64,000 nt of DNA, taken from NCBI GenBank assembly GCA_026387915.1, contig JAPLKS010000005.1:1-64000 (forward strand). Direction: 5' to 3'. Position numbers and translations under genes: made by a program. Under the pieces are notes generated by a model. That model worked only from the letters and a program-made list of their open reading frames with translations, was not told the DNA's origin and did not search any database. The first letter of the stretch is position 1. The number at the start of each line of letters is the position of its first letter. The stretch comes from Gemmatimonadota bacterium. Its GTDB lineage: Bacteria; Gemmatimonadota; Gemmatimonadetes; Gemmatimonadales; Gemmatimonadaceae. Of this stretch, positions 3,031-51,169 are shown piece by piece.

Positions 3031-5532
3031 GTGTTCCCGACGCCATTGCCCATCGACGCGGTGCTTGCCGCCCTCAGCGAGACGCTGGTGGCCGGCACCC
3101 GTGCCGTACTCCAGGCGCCTCCGGGTGCTGGGAAAACTACTCGGGTGCCGCTCGCTCTGCTCAAGTCGCCGTGGCTGGGGGCGCAAAAGATTGTCATGCT
3201 TGAGCCCCGGCGGCTGGCAGCCCGTGCCGCCGCGCGCTTTATGGCAGCCTCGCTCGGCGAGGAGGTGGGGGGCACTGTTGGCTACCGCGTGCGCGGGGAC
3301 AGCCGCGTGAGCCGTCGCACGCGCATTGAGGTGGTGACGGAGGGGGTGCTCACGCGGCTGATTCAGGACGACCCGTCGCTCGAGGGGATTGGGCTCGTGG
3401 TGTTCGATGAGTTTCACGAGCGGAATCTCGTGGCGGATCTTGGGTTGGCGCTTGCGTTGCAATCCGCAGAGTTGCTACGCCCCGACCTGCGGTTGCTCGC
3501 CATGTCGGCCACGCTCGACGGAGAAGCGGTGGCGCGACTTCTCGGCGGTGCGCCGGTGATTACGAGTCAGGGGCGTGCGTACCCCGTGGAAACGGTGTAT
3601 GTGCCGCGTCGCGCGGATGTGTGGATTGAGCCAGCAATTGCGACGGTGGTGGAACGCGCGCTTGCAGCTCACGAGGGAGATGTGCTGGTATTTCTTCCGG
3701 GTGCGGCAGAAATACGTCGTACCGCCTCGGCACTCGCGGGGCGCTTACTCCCGCCGCGCACGAGCATCTACACGCTCCACGGCACCCTGCCGCTCGAGGA
3801 ACAAGACCGCGCGATTGCGCCGAGCCCGCCCGGCTGCCGCAAAGTTGTGCTCGCAACGTCGGTAGCGGAAACGAGTTTGACCATCGAGGGAGTCCGCGTG
3901 GTGGTGGATAGCGGGCTCGCGCGAGTGCCACGTTTTTCGGCGCGGTCGGGCATGCAACGACTCGAGACGGTGCGCGTCTCGCAGGACTCGGCGGAACAGC
4001 GACGCGGCCGAGCCGGACGCCTGGCTGCAGGCTACTGCTATCGTCTGTGGAGCGAAGGGGAACATGCCTCGTTGCCCGAGCGGCGACCGCCTGAAATTCT
4101 CGAAGCGGACCTCGCGCCGCTCGCGCTGGAGCTTGCTGCGGCAGGAATCGACGACCCCGCGACACTCGCCTGGATAGACGCGCCGCCGGCGGGAACGTAT
4201 GCACAGGCCCGCGCGCTTCTCGCGTCGCTCGGTGCGCTCGATGCCGGGTTGCGGATCACGCCGCACGGGCGGCGCATGGCGGGTGTGGGGATTCATCCGC
4301 GGCTGGCGCATCTCGTGATTCGCGGCATGGAGATGCAGTGCGGTGCCCTCGCGTGCGATGTGGCGGCACTCCTCGCCGAACGCGATCTGTTGCGCGGCGA
4401 CGCGGCGCGCGGTGATCCGGACTTACGCACGCGAGTGGAACTGCTCCGCGCGCCCGGCGCGGAGCACGACGCGCGCGTGGACCGTGGCCGACTCTTTCAG
4501 ATTCGTGACGAAGCGCGGCGACTGCGCGGCGAACTCGGCGTGCGCGGCGACGCAGAGGATGTCGATCGCGACGCGCGGTGCGGTGACCTCGTGGCGCTGG
4601 CGTACCCGGACCGCGTGGCGCTCTCGCGCGGCGGGCGCACGCGGTTTGTGATGCGCAATGGCCGCGGCGCCAAGGTGGACGACGCCTCACCGCTCGCGGG
4701 CGCGCCTTGCCTCGCTATTGGCGATACCGACGGCGACGGAGGTGAAGCCAAGGTGTACCGCGCGGTGCCGTTGACGCGCGAGCAACTCGAGACGCTGTTT
4801 GCCTCAGACATTGAGCGCGAAGATGTGGTGGAGATTGACGACGCCACGGGTGCCGTGCGGGCCATCACGCGCGAGCGTCTTGGCGCCCTCGTGCTGCGCG
4901 AACGCCCGCAGCGCGAACCGAATGCCGATGCGATGCGCCGCGCGATGCTGGACGCGGTGCGCCGCGCTGGCGTGGCCGCGTTGCCGTGGAGCGACGGTGC
5001 GCAACGTACGCGCGAGCGCATGGCCTTCGTGCGTACGATCCATGCGGATTGGCCAGACGTCTCCGACGACTCGCTGCTCGCCGACCTCGACCAGTGGCTC
5101 GGCACGCACCTCAACGGCGTGCGCAAGCGCGCCGACCTCGCCAAGCTCGACCTCGGTACCTTTCTGCTCGACCTCCTCGACTGGAAGCAACGGGCCGCGC
5201 TCGATTCGCTGGCGCCCACGCATCTCACGGTGCCGAGCGGGTCGCGGATTCCGGTGGATTACGCCGATCCGGAGAGCCCTGCCCTGTCTGTGCGATTGCA
5301 GGAAATGTTTGGGGCGTCGGACACGCCGCGTGTCGGGGGCGAGCGAGTGGCCGTCACACTCCATCTGCTTTCCCCTGCCCATCGGCCGGTGCAGGTGACA
5401 CGGGATCTCGCTGGGTTTTGGCGCAGTTCGTATTTCGACGTGCGGAAGGATATGCGGGGGCGGTACCCGCGGCACTATTGGCCCGACGACCCGCTGCAGG
5501 CCGAGCCGACGAAGCGCGCCAAGCCGCGGTAA
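3031..5532 (+). CDS. hrpB: ATP-dependent RNA helicase HrpB (DEAH box)
   Basis: 833 residues, normal for HrpB. Order: helicase ATP-binding domain with Walker A APPGAGKTT (residues 29-37) and box II DEFH (126-129); helicase C-terminal domain with LATSVAETSLTIEGV and arginine-finger motif QRRGRAGR (about 323-330); a HA2-like helical region; and an HrpB-specific C-terminus with PVDYADPESPALSVRLQEMFG and the terminal RYPRHYWPDDP typical of the family. HrpB is a superfamily 2 RNA helicase of the cytoplasm with a poorly defined cellular role. The start is GTG at 3031, which leaves a normal N-terminus. Divergent from lspA. Confidence 0.95.
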   Translation: MFPTPLPIDAVLAALSETLVAGTRAVLQAPPGAGKTTRVPLALLKSPWLGAQKIVMLEPRRLAARAAARFMAASLGEEVGGTVGYRVRGDSRVSRRTRIEVVTEGVLTRLIQDDPSLEGIGLVVFDEFHERNLVADLGLALALQSAELLRPDLRLLAMSATLDGEAVARLLGGAPVITSQGRAYPVETVYVPRRADVWIEPAIATVVERALAAHEGDVLVFLPGAAEIRRTASALAGRLLPPRTSIYTLHGTLPLEEQDRAIAPSPPGCRKVVLATSVAETSLTIEGVRVVVDSGLARVPRFSARSGMQRLETVRVSQDSAEQRRGRAGRLAAGYCYRLWSEGEHASLPERRPPEILEADLAPLALELAAAGIDDPATLAWIDAPPAGTYAQARALLASLGALDAGLRITPHGRRMAGVGIHPRLAHLVIRGMEMQCGALACDVAALLAERDLLRGDAARGDPDLRTRVELLRAPGAEHDARVDRGRLFQIRDEARRLRGELGVRGDAEDVDRDARCGDLVALAYPDRVALSRGGRTRFVMRNGRGAKVDDASPLAGAPCLAIGDTDGDGGEAKVYRAVPLTREQLETLFASDIEREDVVEIDDATGAVRAITRERLGALVLRERPQREPNADAMRRAMLDAVRRAGVAALPWSDGAQRTRERMAFVRTIHADWPDVSDDSLLADLDQWLGTHLNGVRKRADLAKLDLGTFLLDLLDWKQRAALDSLAPTHLTVPSGSRIPVDYADPESPALSVRLQEMFGASDTPRVGGERVAVTLHLLSPAHRPVQVTRDLAGFWRSSYFDVRKDMRGRYPRHYWPDDPLQAEPTKRAKPR

Positions 5533-44998: not shown

Positions 44999-45087
44999 CT
45001 TTCCGTGGATTCGCTGCGGTGAGCGCAGGGGGGACGATACCGCCTGTATCCGGATGTTCGTTCGCTCATCCTTATATCCCGCGTTCC

Positions 45088-45924
45088 ATGCGCCCTCCAC
45101 ACACCGCTCGTTACGCCGCCCGCTGCCTCGCCGCACTCGTCGTGTTTGGTGCCGCCGAGTTGCCGGCACAGATCACCGTCACCGCTGACTTGGCGTCGAA
45201 CTCCGCCTACATGTGGCGCGGAACGACAATGACAAACCGGTTTGTGCTACAGCCGGACGTCATCGCCACATTCGGTACCCATGGCTGGATCTTTCTGGCC
45301 GCGGCCAACGCGAACATTGAACCCGCGCGCTACGGCAATGCGCTCGACATCAGCGAGCGGGGCGGCACCGCCGCGGGAGTTGCAGAAGTGGACGTGTGGG
45401 CCGAGGCCACGCACGCGCTCGGGCCTGCCCTGCTCACACTCGGCGCACTCTCGTACACCTTTCCGGGGCCCGCCGGAATGACCAGCGCGCAGAACACGTT
45501 CGAGTGGTACGCGCGCGCCGCCTTCGATGCGCCCCTCGCACCGACGCTACAGGTCTGGCTCGACACCTGGCGCGTCAACGGCACCTACGCCGAACTCTCC
45601 ATCGCGCAGGATGTTCATCTCCTTGCGCTCCCCATCCACTTCTCTGCCCTTCAGGGATACAGCGTGAGCCAGACCTACAGTGCCGCCGAAGCCCAAGGCT
45701 ACTTTGCGCGCGGCGGCTTTACACACACCGACATCGGCGCCGCCTCGACGTTCCCCATGGGACCAGTCACCGCCACGCCATCGGTGCACTTGATCATCGC
45801 GGCCGACCCGAAGACGCGGGCGGTGTCGCCGGTGAGAGAAGTAGGCACCAAGGTATGGTTTGGCGTGTCGTTCGGATGGAGCCATCAGTTTGGCGCCACC
45901 AACAAAATCGCGGCCGCTCCTTGA
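45088..45924 (+). CDS. Putative outer-membrane beta-barrel protein of unknown function
   Basis: 278 residues from the ATG at 45088. The signal peptide (CLAALVVFGAAELPAQ) is followed by alternating amphipathic strands throughout: ITVTADLASNSAYMWRGTTMTNRFVLQPD, WIFLAAANANIEP, and a C-terminal VWFGVSFGWSHQFG. The YMWRG start resembles the TorF/porin-like family that opens with a surface strand. No substrate clue. Divergent from the chemoreceptor gene, with a palindrome between the two, so the receptor and this barrel may share control. Confidence 0.65.
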   Translation: MRPPHTARYAARCLAALVVFGAAELPAQITVTADLASNSAYMWRGTTMTNRFVLQPDVIATFGTHGWIFLAAANANIEPARYGNALDISERGGTAAGVAEVDVWAEATHALGPALLTLGALSYTFPGPAGMTSAQNTFEWYARAAFDAPLAPTLQVWLDTWRVNGTYAELSIAQDVHLLALPIHFSALQGYSVSQTYSAAEAQGYFARGGFTHTDIGAASTFPMGPVTATPSVHLIIAADPKTRAVSPVREVGTKVWFGVSFGWSHQFGATNKIAAAP

Positions 45925-45976: not shown

Positions 45977-46017
45977 TCGTCTACACCGTCACCGCAGTTG
46001 GGTGACGGTTTCGTTTA

Positions 46018-47814
46018 TTAGAACTGATCGAGCGGCATCTCCAACGGCGTGGACTCGAGCGAGCGGAGCAGCGTGTGCTGCGCCGTCGTCTGCGGAAGCT
46101 CCCAAGCGAAGAAATAGCGCATGGCCTGCAGCTTTCCGTTGTAGAACGCTTGATCCGCTTCGGAGGCACCGGCCGCCAGCGCGCGCGTGGCCACCACCGC
46201 CTGCCGCAACCACAGCCAGCTGATCACCACGCGGCTCGCGCAATCGAGATACACGTTGGCGTTCGCGAGTGCGCGCGCCGGATCTTTGGCCATCGCCTTT
46301 CCAAGCGTGACGGTGGTAATGCCGAGCTCGACGAGCGCGGCCTTGAGGGCGTCGGCCTGCGCGGGGAGTAGCGATGCGGCGTCGGCGATTCCTGCGCCAA
46401 TGCGCGCGGTGAGCGCACGGAACGCCGCACCATTTTCCATCATCACTTTGCGGCCCAGCAGGTCAACGGCCTGAATGCCGTTGGTCCCTTCGTGGATTTG
46501 ATTAAGCCGGTTGTCGCGATAGAGTTGCTCCACGGCGTATTCACGGGCATAGCCGTAGCCGCCGAGAATTTGCATGGCGTTACTGATGCCGTCCTGACCG
46601 GCATACGAGGGCCACGATTTTGCAATCGGCGTGAGCGCTTCGAGCAGGAGCCCAGCTTCCTTGCGCGCCGCTTCCTCTGCCGCGGTTTCCTGCTCGTCCA
46701 TCAGCGTCGCGCACTCAAAGATCAGCGCCAACGAGCCCTCAACAGTCGCCTTCTGCGAGAGCAGCATGCGGCGAATGTCGGCGTGCTCGATGATCGCCAC
46801 CGGCGGCTTGTTGGGGTCCTTCTCGCCGGGGAGGCGCCCCTGATGGCGCGCGCGCGCATAATCGAGCGAATACAAATACGCGGAATACGCCATCGCCGTG
46901 CCGGAACGCCCCACGGAGATGCGCGCCGCATTCATCATATGGAACATGTAGGGCAAGCCACGGTGTGGCTCACCCACTAAATAACCAACGCACGTCCCCT
47001 GCTCGCCAAAGTTGAGCAACGCGGAGGTAGTACCGCGCCATCCCATTTTGTGAATGATACCGCCGAGCGCCACGTTGTTAGATGCGCCCACGGAGCCGTC
47101 GGCGTTCACCATTTTCTTTGGCACCACGAACAGCGAAATCCCCTTCACGCCTTCCGGCGCGCCTGCGATGCGGGCGAGCAGCAAGTGGACAATGTTCTCG
47201 CTCAGTTCATGATCGCCGCCAGAGATCCAGATTTTGGTGCCGGTGATGTTATACGTGCCGTCGCCCAGCGGTTCGGCGCGCGTGCGCACGTCGGCGAGCG
47301 ACGAGCCGGCATCGGGCTCGGTGAGCGCCATCGTGCCGGTAAAGCGCCCCTCGAACATTGGGGGCAGATAGAGCGACTGCAGTTCGGGGTTGCCGAACTT
47401 CGCAATGAGATCGGCGGCACCGGCCGTGAGCATTGCATACGATGTGGTTGCCACATTGGCGGCGTCGAACCACGCCAGCGAGGCCGCCGAGATCACGTGC
47501 GGCAGTTGCATGCCACCGAACTTCGCGTCGTGCGTGCCGGCAATGAATCCGGCTTCGGCAATCGCGCGCACCGCGGCCTGCACTTCGGGAATGATCACCA
47601 CGCGGCCGTCCACCACGCGCGGTTCGTCTGTGTCGTTCTTTTTGCGATGGTTGGCGAGATGCTCCACGGCAATGCCGTGCGCCGTGTCGAGGACGGCGTC
47701 GAAAATCTCCCGACTGTGCTCGGCAAAGCGCGGCCGCTTCGCGAGCGACGCCGTGTCGAGCACTTCGTACAACTGGAACGTCACATCGCGGGGATTCAGC
47801 AGAAACTCGGTCAC
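46018..47814 (-). CDS. Acyl-CoA dehydrogenase
   Basis: 598 residues from the GTG at 47814; the longer frame to 47958 runs through a C-tract and has no conserved residues. Beta-oxidation flavoenzyme that oxidises acyl-CoA to enoyl-CoA. Motifs: TGTMALTEPDAGSSLADVR (flavin binding), NITGTKIWISGGDHEL, ARISVGRSGTAMAYSAYLYS, QILGGYGYAREYAVEQLYRDNRLNQIHEGTN with the catalytic-region Glu, and a C-terminal extra domain (about residues 480-598). This long form with extra domain fits long-chain or short-branched substrates. It may work with the acyl-CoA ligase at 20092; not linked in sequence. Confidence 0.92.
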   Translation of the reverse strand: MTEFLLNPRDVTFQLYEVLDTASLAKRPRFAEHSREIFDAVLDTAHGIAVEHLANHRKKNDTDEPRVVDGRVVIIPEVQAAVRAIAEAGFIAGTHDAKFGGMQLPHVISAASLAWFDAANVATTSYAMLTAGAADLIAKFGNPELQSLYLPPMFEGRFTGTMALTEPDAGSSLADVRTRAEPLGDGTYNITGTKIWISGGDHELSENIVHLLLARIAGAPEGVKGISLFVVPKKMVNADGSVGASNNVALGGIIHKMGWRGTTSALLNFGEQGTCVGYLVGEPHRGLPYMFHMMNAARISVGRSGTAMAYSAYLYSLDYARARHQGRLPGEKDPNKPPVAIIEHADIRRMLLSQKATVEGSLALIFECATLMDEQETAAEEAARKEAGLLLEALTPIAKSWPSYAGQDGISNAMQILGGYGYAREYAVEQLYRDNRLNQIHEGTNGIQAVDLLGRKVMMENGAAFRALTARIGAGIADAASLLPAQADALKAALVELGITTVTLGKAMAKDPARALANANVYLDCASRVVISWLWLRQAVVATRALAAGASEADQAFYNGKLQAMRYFFAWELPQTTAQHTLLRSLESTPLEMPLDQF

Positions 47815-47932
47815 GGCGCGGGTCCTGGCAGAGGCAGAGGAGGGTGAGCCGCCGGCGTCATCGACCGGGGTTTTCCTAATTATATGCTGGCGAAATGGCG
47901 GCGGCGTATCGGAGGTGGTACGCCCCCCCCCC

Positions 47933-47943
47933 CGTGGCGACCG
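47933..47943. repeat. Run of 11 cytosines in a divergent promoter region
   Basis: An uninterrupted C11 tract lies between the acyl-CoA dehydrogenase start and the diguanylate-cyclase gene. Such homopolymer runs are prone to slippage in vivo and to base-count errors in sequencing. Confidence 0.9.
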
Positions 47944-48036
47944 AAATAAAGGTGACATATCGACGGCGGCCTGACGCTGCTGTAAGTTTTTTCCGGTTCA
48001 AAGCACACCGTCTCCCCCCGTAGCCCCCCGATTGCC

Positions 48037-48426
48037 ATGACGCGTTTGTTGCTTGCCGTGTGGCTGCAGCTGGCCGCCTTCGGCTCTGCCGTTGGTACCG
48101 CCATTGGAGCCGTGTTTGGCACTGCCCCGCAGGTCGCCCAAGTGGCCGCGCCCGCGGCCCGCGCTCCCTCGAGCGCTGTGACCCCCATCGCCTCCGCTAT
48201 TGCCCGCCGGGCCAAGGGCGATTCCGTGACCCTCGCTGGCCGCGCCACCTCCGGCACCGGCCAGCTCCAGTCCTCGGCGTTCGACATTTCCATGCAAGAC
48301 GCCACCGCCGGCATCCGCGTCTTTTCCAAGAAGTTCGCTGTGGAGGTGCATGAGGGAGACAGCGTGGTCGCCACCGGCGTCGTGCAGACCTACGCGGCGC
48401 CCTTGAACTTGTTGCCTCTCGGTTGA
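48037..48426 (+). CDS. N-terminal part of a frameshifted diguanylate cyclase (signal/OB-fold region)
   Basis: 129 residues. Signal-like N-terminus (LLLAVWLQLAAFGSAVGTAIG) and an OB-fold-like segment (GDSVTLAGRATSGTGQLQ, FDISMQDATAGIRVFSKKF, VHEGDSVVATGVVQTY). After residue 119 (TAC at 48391-48393) the reading frame goes off: the rest reads AAPLNLLPLG and stops. In the next frame the same bases read RGALELVASRLTVVP, which joins smoothly to the next ORF. I therefore take this and 48423-49730 as one gene of about 564 residues split by a missing base. If the break is real, this short ORF is a remnant. Confidence 0.75.
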   Translation: MTRLLLAVWLQLAAFGSAVGTAIGAVFGTAPQVAQVAAPAARAPSSAVTPIASAIARRAKGDSVTLAGRATSGTGQLQSSAFDISMQDATAGIRVFSKKFAVEVHEGDSVVATGVVQTYAAPLNLLPLG

Positions 48427-49730
48427 CAGTCGTCCCCGCCGAGGCGCGCCACGTGCTCTCGGCTGATGTGCCGATCGACCAGTCGATGCTCCCGAAATAC
48501 GACGGGATGGTCGTGCGCGCCCGAGGACGGGTCGCTCGATTTGGCACCAGTGAGGGGGGCCAGTTTCTCACGATGCGCGACATGCGCCCCGACGCCAAGG
48601 GGACGCTCACCATTTGGGTTCCCAGCAATCACGGCGCGCCAATCGATCTCGCGCGGGCGCGTTTTGAAGACAGCGTTACTGTCACCGGCATTATGTCGCG
48701 CTATCAAGACAACCCCAGCGACCCCATCGTGTGGCAGGTGATTCCGCGCACCAACGATGACGTGATTGTCCCCGCGCCGGTCAAAGAAGTGCCCGGATGG
48801 GTCAACGGCGCGGCACTCGCCGTGGCGGTGCTGCTCGCGCTCGCGCTGTTTGCCGGCCGCTGGTCGGCGAGCCGTCAGTTCCGCTCCCTGCGCGAAACCG
48901 AGACGCGCTACCGTCAGTTGCTCGCCCTTTCGCCAGACGCCGTGCTCGTGCACGCGGATGGCGTGGTGCGCTTTGCCAATGCGGCCGCTGCCAAACTGCT
49001 CGGGCTCGACAGTGAAGCGGAACTCAGTGGGCGGACGCTCTCAGATTTTGTGCCCTCGGAGTTTCGTGCGCCCATCGAATCCCCCTCGCTCCCAGAGCCG
49101 GGACACCTCGCGTTGCGGCATCGCGGTCAGCTCCGCAGTCACACCGGACGTCTCGTGGATGTTGAGGCGACGGCCGCACCGTGTGTCTATCTCGACCGCG
49201 CGGCCGTGGTGGTGCTCGCGCGCGACATCACGCAGCAGCTTCGCTACGAGCGCGATCTCCAGGGACTCGCGCTGATTGACGAACTGACGGGCATCGCGAA
49301 TCGCCGCGGCTTTTCACTCTTTGCGGAACAGGAACTCGCACGCGCGCGTCGGGAGCGCCGTGTGCCGGTCGTCGTGTTTGCTGACATTGACCTACTCAAA
49401 CAGATCAACGACGCGCACGGCCATGCGGCCGGCGATCAAGCCATTCGCATTGTGTCCGCTGCGTTTCGCAGCGTGCTCCGCGAGTCGGATGTGATGGCGC
49501 GCTGGGGTGGCGACGAGTTTGTGGCGCTTATTGGCGAAGGCGGGGAACGCACCGCGCAACAACTGTCCGCACGTTTGGCTGGTGCCATTGCGGCGCTCCG
49601 GCCGCCGGGGCTCGCCTTCACCGTGCGGGCGAGCGTTGGTATGTGTCCGCTCGATACGACGCTCACACTCAACGAAGCGCTCGAGCGGGCCGACGCGGCG
49701 CTCTACGAACAGAAGCGCACAACGACCTAA
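48423..49730 (+). CDS. Diguanylate cyclase with PAS domain (C-terminal part of the frameshifted gene)
   Basis: 435 residues in the ORF; the TTG at 48423 is formal only. A membrane helix (NGAALAVAVLLALALFAG, about residues 127-145) follows an OB-fold remainder; then a PAS domain (LLALSPDAVLVHADGVVRFAN) and a GGDEF domain with MARWGGDEFVALI and, five residues before it, RESD, the inhibitory site for cyclic di-GMP. The active GGDEF and intact I-site argue for a working, feedback-controlled cyclase if the N-terminus is intact. The catalytic half could still be made alone from the TTG, but it would then lack the sensor part. Confidence 0.88.
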   Translation: MTVVPAEARHVLSADVPIDQSMLPKYDGMVVRARGRVARFGTSEGGQFLTMRDMRPDAKGTLTIWVPSNHGAPIDLARARFEDSVTVTGIMSRYQDNPSDPIVWQVIPRTNDDVIVPAPVKEVPGWVNGAALAVAVLLALALFAGRWSASRQFRSLRETETRYRQLLALSPDAVLVHADGVVRFANAAAAKLLGLDSEAELSGRTLSDFVPSEFRAPIESPSLPEPGHLALRHRGQLRSHTGRLVDVEATAAPCVYLDRAAVVVLARDITQQLRYERDLQGLALIDELTGIANRRGFSLFAEQELARARRERRVPVVVFADIDLLKQINDAHGHAAGDQAIRIVSAAFRSVLRESDVMARWGGDEFVALIGEGGERTAQQLSARLAGAIAALRPPGLAFTVRASVGMCPLDTTLTLNEALERADAALYEQKRTTT

Positions 49731-49740
49731 CGGGACGCGT

Positions 49741-50400
49741 CTATACGTCGAGCGCGCGTCGCAAAGCTGCGGCGCCGGCACTCCCGCCGGCGCCAATCAC
49801 GCGGTCCACGCCCGCCACAATCAACGTGAACCCGCGTTCGCGCCACGGCCGCACCGCATCAGCGCTCGCACCAAAGATGCCTTTGGGCACGCCCGCGCGA
49901 TCGCAACCAGCGGCAATGTCCAGCACAGCGCGCTGAAATTCGTCGCGGGCGAACTCTCCAGGCATTCCGAGACTGGCCGAGAGATCATTCGGCCCCACGA
50001 GCACCGCCGCTACGCCTGGCGTTGCGGCAATGGCGTCGATATTCCGCACGGCCTCCGCCGTCTCGGCCTGCACCACCACGGCACCGCGCCCCGCCACCGC
50101 CGCCACGGCGCTCGCCGCCATTTTCGCATCGCTCACGAGCGGTACAATAACGCCAACCGCGCCACCGTCGAACGCTGCGACGAGCCAGGCCTCCGTGAGC
50201 GTCGCGATGCGCACGAGGCACATGGTGTGATGCGCCGCACGCCGCACGTACGCCCCCACGTTCTCTGGCGTGAACGCGCCATGCTCACCGTCCACAAAGA
50301 GCCAATCAAAATGCAGCGGCGCATACGCATCGCCCGCTTCGGGGGTTGGGTCGGTCACCAATGTGCCGAGGAGCGTTTCGCCCGCGCCGAGTCGTTTCAA
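49741..50400 (-). CDS. HpcH/HpaI-type aldolase
   Basis: 219 residues from a TTG at 50400, which overlaps the upstream DsrE-like stop as TTGA; TTG at 50421 is the alternative. Family members cleave or make C-C bonds with pyruvate and an aldehyde, with a divalent metal. Motifs: FDWLFVDGEHG, GAVGVIVPLVSD, VVVQAETAEAVRNID, VAAVLVGPNDLSASLG (metal and substrate loops) and GVPKGIFGASADAV. Substrate unknown. It ends 10 bases from the convergent diguanylate-cyclase gene. Confidence 0.85.
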   Translation of the reverse strand: MKRLGAGETLLGTLVTDPTPEAGDAYAPLHFDWLFVDGEHGAFTPENVGAYVRRAAHHTMCLVRIATLTEAWLVAAFDGGAVGVIVPLVSDAKMAASAVAAVAGRGAVVVQAETAEAVRNIDAIAATPGVAAVLVGPNDLSASLGMPGEFARDEFQRAVLDIAAGCDRAGVPKGIFGASADAVRPWRERGFTLIVAGVDRVIGAGGSAGAAALRRALDV

Positions 50401-51089
50401 CTGCCGCGCACCTGCAGGCAACCCGCCTGTTGCGCACGGATCACGGCAAAGATTCCCGACGGCTGCAACACCACGCCAGGGACGAGTAAGCTCATCGCTT
50501 TTTTGCGGGCGTCGTCTGCGCTCAATTTATCTTTTTCTGCAATCATCGACACGCAGCCGCCAAAAGCCAATCCGCACCCGAGCGCAATGCCACCTCGCGC
50601 AATGAACTGATCGAGCGCCATCGCATCAAAATCGGCGGGGGTGCCATCCTGCTTGGAGTTCAGCAGCGCGGGGTTGCGGTCCGTCGGCTGCTCCGTGACC
50701 GGATGCTTTACGTTGTTCTTCTTTCCAATGCCGTAGGCCTCCCAATACGCCTGCTGCATGGCGAGGGCAATCGCGTTGTGCCGGAGCACCAACACCGTTT
50801 GCATCTCCTCGGGCTTGGCGCCCATCACGGCGGCGTACTGTTTGGCCCACATCGATGCGCGGAACACGCCAGATCCTTCCTCAATCTCGGCGCAGTCCAC
50901 CACCACGCGGTGCTTGGCCTTGATCGTGTCGGCCCAACGCAGATCCCACGGTTCATCGCCGGCCGGATCGGCCGAGACCGACGTCGCACGGATCGCGTCC
51001 GAAGGCATCGCGCCGAGGACGGCGGGGAGCCCGAGGAATGCAGCGCCGCCTCCAATCTGTTCAATGAATTCGCGTCGGGTCGTGGCCAT
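50397..51089 (-). CDS. Tat-exported DsrE/F-like protein, second copy
   Basis: 230 residues with twin-arginine signal (TTRREFIEQIGGGAAFLGLP). It shares with the 1691 protein the WDLRWADTIKAKHRVVVD opening, LVLRHNAIALAM, an ARGGIALGCGLAFGG Cys strand and a C-terminal PSGIFAVIRAQQAGC. The matching residues at both ends support paralogy. It is translated with the HpcH aldolase (4-base overlap). Function unknown; a periplasmic thiol or sulfur-transfer role is possible through the conserved Cys residues. Confidence 0.7.
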   Translation of the reverse strand: MATTRREFIEQIGGGAAFLGLPAVLGAMPSDAIRATSVSADPAGDEPWDLRWADTIKAKHRVVVDCAEIEEGSGVFRASMWAKQYAAVMGAKPEEMQTVLVLRHNAIALAMQQAYWEAYGIGKKNNVKHPVTEQPTDRNPALLNSKQDGTPADFDAMALDQFIARGGIALGCGLAFGGCVSMIAEKDKLSADDARKKAMSLLVPGVVLQPSGIFAVIRAQQAGCLQVRGS

Positions 51090-51169
51090 GCGTTCTCCGG
51101 GGGAAGAGTGAAGGCATCAGATTACTTCGCCGCATGGCGTCCGTCCAGCAGACACGCAGCTCCAACGCA

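Follow-up and report, generated by a model that had tools for sequence, protein, structure and literature searches.

Two overlapping open reading frames lie side by side in the window (the whole stretch of 64,000 nucleotides of Gemmatimonadota DNA analyzed here), and the question is whether they encode two proteins or are the remains of one gene and, in the latter case, whether the break is a mutation or an error in the sequence. It is close to certain that ORF1 and ORF2 are the halves of one ancestral gene, from which one base is missing and which is intact in the relatives. The translation of ORF1 ends with GVVQTYAAPLNLLPLG and a stop codon; over the same last bases the frame of ORF2 reads RGALELVASRLTVVP, and this frame is open upstream of its called start at 48423 back to a stop at 48351. 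The stop of ORF1 (TGA) and the start of ORF2 (TTG) share two bases, in the sequence TTGA (48423 to 48426). Joined at the break, the two frames give 119 + 445 = 564 residues, which is the length foreseen in the first-pass annotation and also the length of the intact nearest homolog, L038 (564 amino acids). The lesion is a change from CC to C without a homopolymer run at the site, and frame and residues are perfect on either side of it. The break lies between residues Tyr119 and Arg120, within the β4-β5 hairpin of the first of two OB folds, and therefore ORF1 cannot complete this barrel. For annotation, this means that the locus is best entered as a single, interrupted diguanylate cyclase gene and not as two proteins; beyond that, the frameshift is of little consequence, and the event itself is an ordinary one.

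Table 1. Features of the interrupted gene, with positions in the window
Feature	Position	Strand	Basis or remark
ORF1, signal peptide and cut-short first OB fold	48037..48426	+	129 aa, out-of-frame end at TGA 48424-48426
Signal-peptide-like hydrophobic N terminus (approximate)	48037..48126	+	from translation; low-confidence helix 2-24 in L038 model
First OB fold, interrupted between β4 and β5	48226..48431	+	L038 residues 64-132; Pfam PF01336 in L038
Break	48391..48396	+	TAC GCG here vs TA(C/T) CG(C/T) GG in homologs; one base fewer
ORF2, called from TTG 48423	48423..49730	+	435 aa: second OB fold, TM, PAS, GGDEF
Second OB fold	48510..48746	+	L038 residues 159-237; model strands, tandem-OB PDB matches
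Transmembrane helix WVNGAALAVAVLLALALFAGRW	48798..48863	+	sequence; within model helix 254-298
PAS domain	48906..49226	+	PF00989, E 2e-8
GGDEF domain	49269..49721	+	PF00990, E 2.6e-35
RESD inhibitory (I) site, RxxD	49479..49490	+	five residues before GGDEF; intact in sequence
GGDEF active-site motif	49506..49520	+	intact in sequence

The homologs leave little room for another ancestry. A tblastn search with ORF2 against 60 related genomes and a genome collection retrieved close orthologs, all from Gemmatimonadota, with amino acid identities of 96% (L038/L009), 81% (L039/L010), and 79% (L040/L011), as well as more distant ones with 63 to 67% (L041 to L046) and about 43 to 53% (L013 to L016). 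All homologs examined read in one frame through the position of the break, and none of them stops there, as expected if a one-base deletion has split a single gene. In a blastn comparison of window positions 46000 to 51100 with L038, the sole indel inside the gene is the gap at 48393/48394, whereas the intergenic region before the gene has many. A DNA alignment of the window with eight homologs confined this gap to the window; the other eight have TA(C/T)CG(C/T)GG. The flanking residues Tyr119, Arg120, and Gly121 were invariant in two comparisons, with 11 and with 13 homologs. Furthermore, when 249 genomes of the phylum were scanned with a tandem-OB profile, the sensor was split into two overlapping matches in different frames (48172 to 48411 and 48390 to 48782) only in the window's genome; in the other strong matches it was unbroken. 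A frame that is intact in the homologs and broken here is what one expects of a frameshift pseudogene.

The unbroken protein would be a membrane diguanylate cyclase in which a periplasmic sensor of two OB folds controls the activity of a GGDEF dimer via the transmembrane helix and the PAS domain, as judged from its domains and their likeness to known cyclases. Both the GGDEF signature and the RxxD I site that mark a diguanylate cyclase are present, and the GGDEF domain scores 122 bits against a Pfam cutoff of 23.8. The first OB fold (PF01336; cutoff, 27 bits) is recognized in intact L038 with 34.2 bits, together with PAS and GGDEF, and reaches only 14.8 bits in ORF1 alone; the second OB fold stays below the cutoff with 15.0 bits. 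AlphaFold models have two five-stranded barrels (residues 64 to 133 and 159 to 237), a long helix that holds the transmembrane segment, PAS, and GGDEF. In the L038 model, the strands of the first barrel are residues 64-70, 82-87, 92-97, 109-119, and 122-133, and those of the second are 159-172, 175-181, 190-196, 213-223, and 232-237. The pTM of the whole-chain model is only 0.41, too low to give the arrangement of the domains; a model of the sensor alone, with a pLDDT of 92 and a pTM of 0.89, again has two barrels. The domain order signal-OB-PAS-GGDEF proposed from the first reading thus holds for the domains named, with the amendment that there are two OB folds, followed by a transmembrane helix before PAS. 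Likewise, the catalytic half is preserved as a sequence, the GGDEF motif and I site being intact as described; if preserved activity was meant, the claim goes too far: the signal peptide and half of the sensor are missing from ORF2, and the enzyme may be inactive even though its GGDEF sequence is preserved.

How old is the break? Between the window and L038, dS is 0.41 and dN 0.027 (dN/dS, 0.066). Polarizing the changes with L039 and L040, over both halves of the window's gene and where L039 and L040 agree, assigned 36 synonymous and 9 nonsynonymous changes to the window branch compared to 30 and 6 to the L038 branch (Fisher's exact test, P = 0.78). Under a simple binomial model, the counts speak against neutral evolution over more than about 30% of the window branch. 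An old pseudogene, unlike a fresh one, should show relaxed selection or extra lesions; we saw no second lesion in the gene, and no relaxed selection was visible when the window and L038 branches were compared. The substitution pattern thus demonstrates strong purifying selection on the gene until recently; hence, the lesion must either have arisen very recently or be an isolated error in the sequence. These are the two options that had been named at first sight, and the reading-through homologs and the codon substitutions agree with that choice.

We favor a real, very recent inactivation of the gene in the window's genome, to which we assign a probability of roughly 0.55; the mutation would then be present in the organism and would probably abolish function. 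The competing explanation, in which the organism has an intact gene and a sequencing or assembly error removed a base from this one assembly, is a serious possibility that we place somewhat below an even chance. In a single assembly, a completely fresh lesion cannot be told from a sequence error, and several observations suit an error well: the strong selection with no second lesion, the perfect frame and residues on both sides of the break, and the frequency of spurious frameshifts in public assemblies, which low-coverage assemblies are known to produce (PMC11017572). The quality of the assembly as a whole was judged by a frameshift census that compared 1.26 Mb of the window's genome with 1.20 Mb of that of a relative, G007 (464 kb aligned, 91% identity). 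Of the 319 G007 ORFs whose substitutions follow a coding-like pattern (402 kb), four were frameshifted in the window's genome, three of them within 3 to 8% of an ORF end; the only one broken in mid-gene was the cyclase. That just one frameshift lies in mid-gene over the 402 kb of coding sequence compared speaks against a generally indel-ridden assembly, although the census is compatible with isolated indel errors at a few places in each genome. Against an error also stand the balance of short gaps between the two genomes and the position of the break outside any homopolymer. The sequence CCGCGG spans the break position in the nearest relative, and a systematic loss at this motif was considered as well; the window's genome matches G007 exactly at 225 of the 446 CCGCGG sites of the latter and is one base shorter at only two of them, and we rejected a motif-linked loss.

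The fate of the gene elsewhere in the genus also bears on this choice. A close ortholog is absent from 14 of 17 other genomes of the same genus. In G016, a congener that does have one (L040), the copy is independently broken by two in-frame TGA codons in its GGDEF half, which again argues against an artifact in the window; the other orthologous genes on the same contig have no stops, and stops in some shadow ORFs there are as expected. In two further genomes, G015 and G013, the flanking acyl-CoA dehydrogenase and a 1,145-amino-acid gene are kept, an alpha/beta-hydrolase-like ORF replaces the cyclase, and no trace of the cyclase was found between these flanking genes. Together, these losses indicate that the gene is dispensable in the genus, which raises the odds that the lesion in the window is real. 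Furthermore, the window's genome has several other GGDEF-domain matches, and therefore, loss of this gene could be tolerated. On balance, the context leans toward a real mutation over an error. If so, the gene would have been disrupted independently at least twice within a single genus, which would illustrate on a small scale how c-di-GMP signaling turns over.

As to the stops in G016, a groundwater relative, the two TGA codons lie 156 bases apart (L040:3868-3874 and 4024-4030), both in the heptamer TGACTCG, and each stands where L039 has a conserved Gly or Arg codon, from which it differs by two or more substitutions. A systematic error behind them was rejected, as the heptamer is not overrepresented in that genome.

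Very improbable, in our view, is a functional split in which both ORFs are translated, by −1 frameshifting or by termination and reinitiation at TTGA, to give a regulated or soluble cyclase. In its favor, an overlapping stop/start layout such as TTGA can couple translation, and the GGDEF half with its I site is intact. However, the homologs are encoded in one frame and hence need no recoding, and ORF2 is without a signal peptide, so that the second OB fold would not normally be exported. Programmed −1 frameshifting can be dismissed, because the 73-nucleotide overlap zone (48354 to 48426), within which the frames could be joined by a −1 shift, contains no X XXY YYZ slippery heptamer, as had been noted from the start, and the split is not conserved, the sensor being split only in the window's genome. 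The TTG at 48423 was also rejected as a genuine gene start: it has neither a Shine-Dalgarno-like sequence upstream nor a conserved counterpart in the relatives, the former being a weak test, since such a sequence is also missing before the original ATG.

Under the preferred reading, a recent inactivation, the course of events may be pictured as follows. The ancestral gene would have encoded an inner-membrane diguanylate cyclase with a signal peptide, two periplasmic OB folds, a transmembrane helix, and cytoplasmic PAS and GGDEF domains. With the very recent loss of one base, translation from 48037 would stop within the first OB fold, 129 codons from the start, and the cyclase half would then not be made, or be made at a low level only, by reinitiation at the TTGA overlap, and the sensor would not be exported. 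Such reinitiation could give some ORF2 product, without the signal peptide and with half the sensor.

The sensor itself is of wider interest than its interruption. The best PDB matches of the sensor model are tandem-OB proteins, namely, RPA70 AB (1jmc), Teb1 AB (3u58), Pot1, and HIN-200 domains, which share with it two consecutive OB folds at 8 to 16% identity and TM-scores of about 0.3 to 0.45 over the pair. These are intracellular nucleic acid binders, whereas the sensor is predicted to be periplasmic. With GGDEF cyclases that have an extracytoplasmic sensor (PF00990 plus PF00989), the protein has in common the GGDEF motif, the RxxD I site, the PAS linker, the transmembrane helix, and the signal peptide; it differs from them in its sensor, which consists of paired OB folds, and in the missing base that splits the gene in this genome. 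The best NCBIfam match, SiaD (NF038266), is under its cutoff. Over the PAS-GGDEF part, the best PDB fold match is the PAS-GGDEF-EAL protein PA0861 of Pseudomonas aeruginosa (5xgb), which has an additional EAL domain; the OB sensor lies outside this match.

The sensor profile was also found in proteins with GGDEF-EAL (L324, a weak match) and histidine kinase outputs (L318 and L322), and because it occurs with different outputs, the sensor behaves as an exchangeable input domain. We regard the tandem-OB extracytoplasmic module as a candidate for an unnamed sensor domain; it recurs with different outputs, is only partly detected by Pfam, and merits a family model. A literature search for OB-fold sensors on diguanylate cyclases returned nothing relevant. 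Tandem OB folds often bind nucleic acid, and it is imaginable, as a long shot, that this unnamed modular input domain of Gemmatimonadota GGDEF, GGDEF-EAL, and histidine kinase proteins responds to oligonucleotides outside the cell, or to a similar polymer, and relays this to c-di-GMP signaling. Sugars, peptides, and small molecules are further ligands of OB folds, and therefore, the nucleic acid ligand is a guess. In L318, L319, L322, L324, and profile A2, the tandem-OB module of Gemmatimonadota is often under the Pfam cutoffs.

Some observations concern the surroundings of the gene. At L301 and L302, the corresponding loci of G015 and G013, the alpha/beta-hydrolase-like ORF takes the place not only of the cyclase but also of the HpcH/HpaI aldolase and the Tat-signal protein. 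In the window, positions 50397 to 51089 (minus strand) encode a 230-amino-acid protein with a twin-arginine-like N terminus (TTRREFIEQIGGG) and no Pfam match; its NCBIfam match to the thiosulfate dehydrogenase TetH is weak and far subthreshold. On the other side of the cyclase, an outer-membrane-like protein (45019 to 45924, plus strand) has subthreshold matches to the Gcw_chp/TorF putative porin family.
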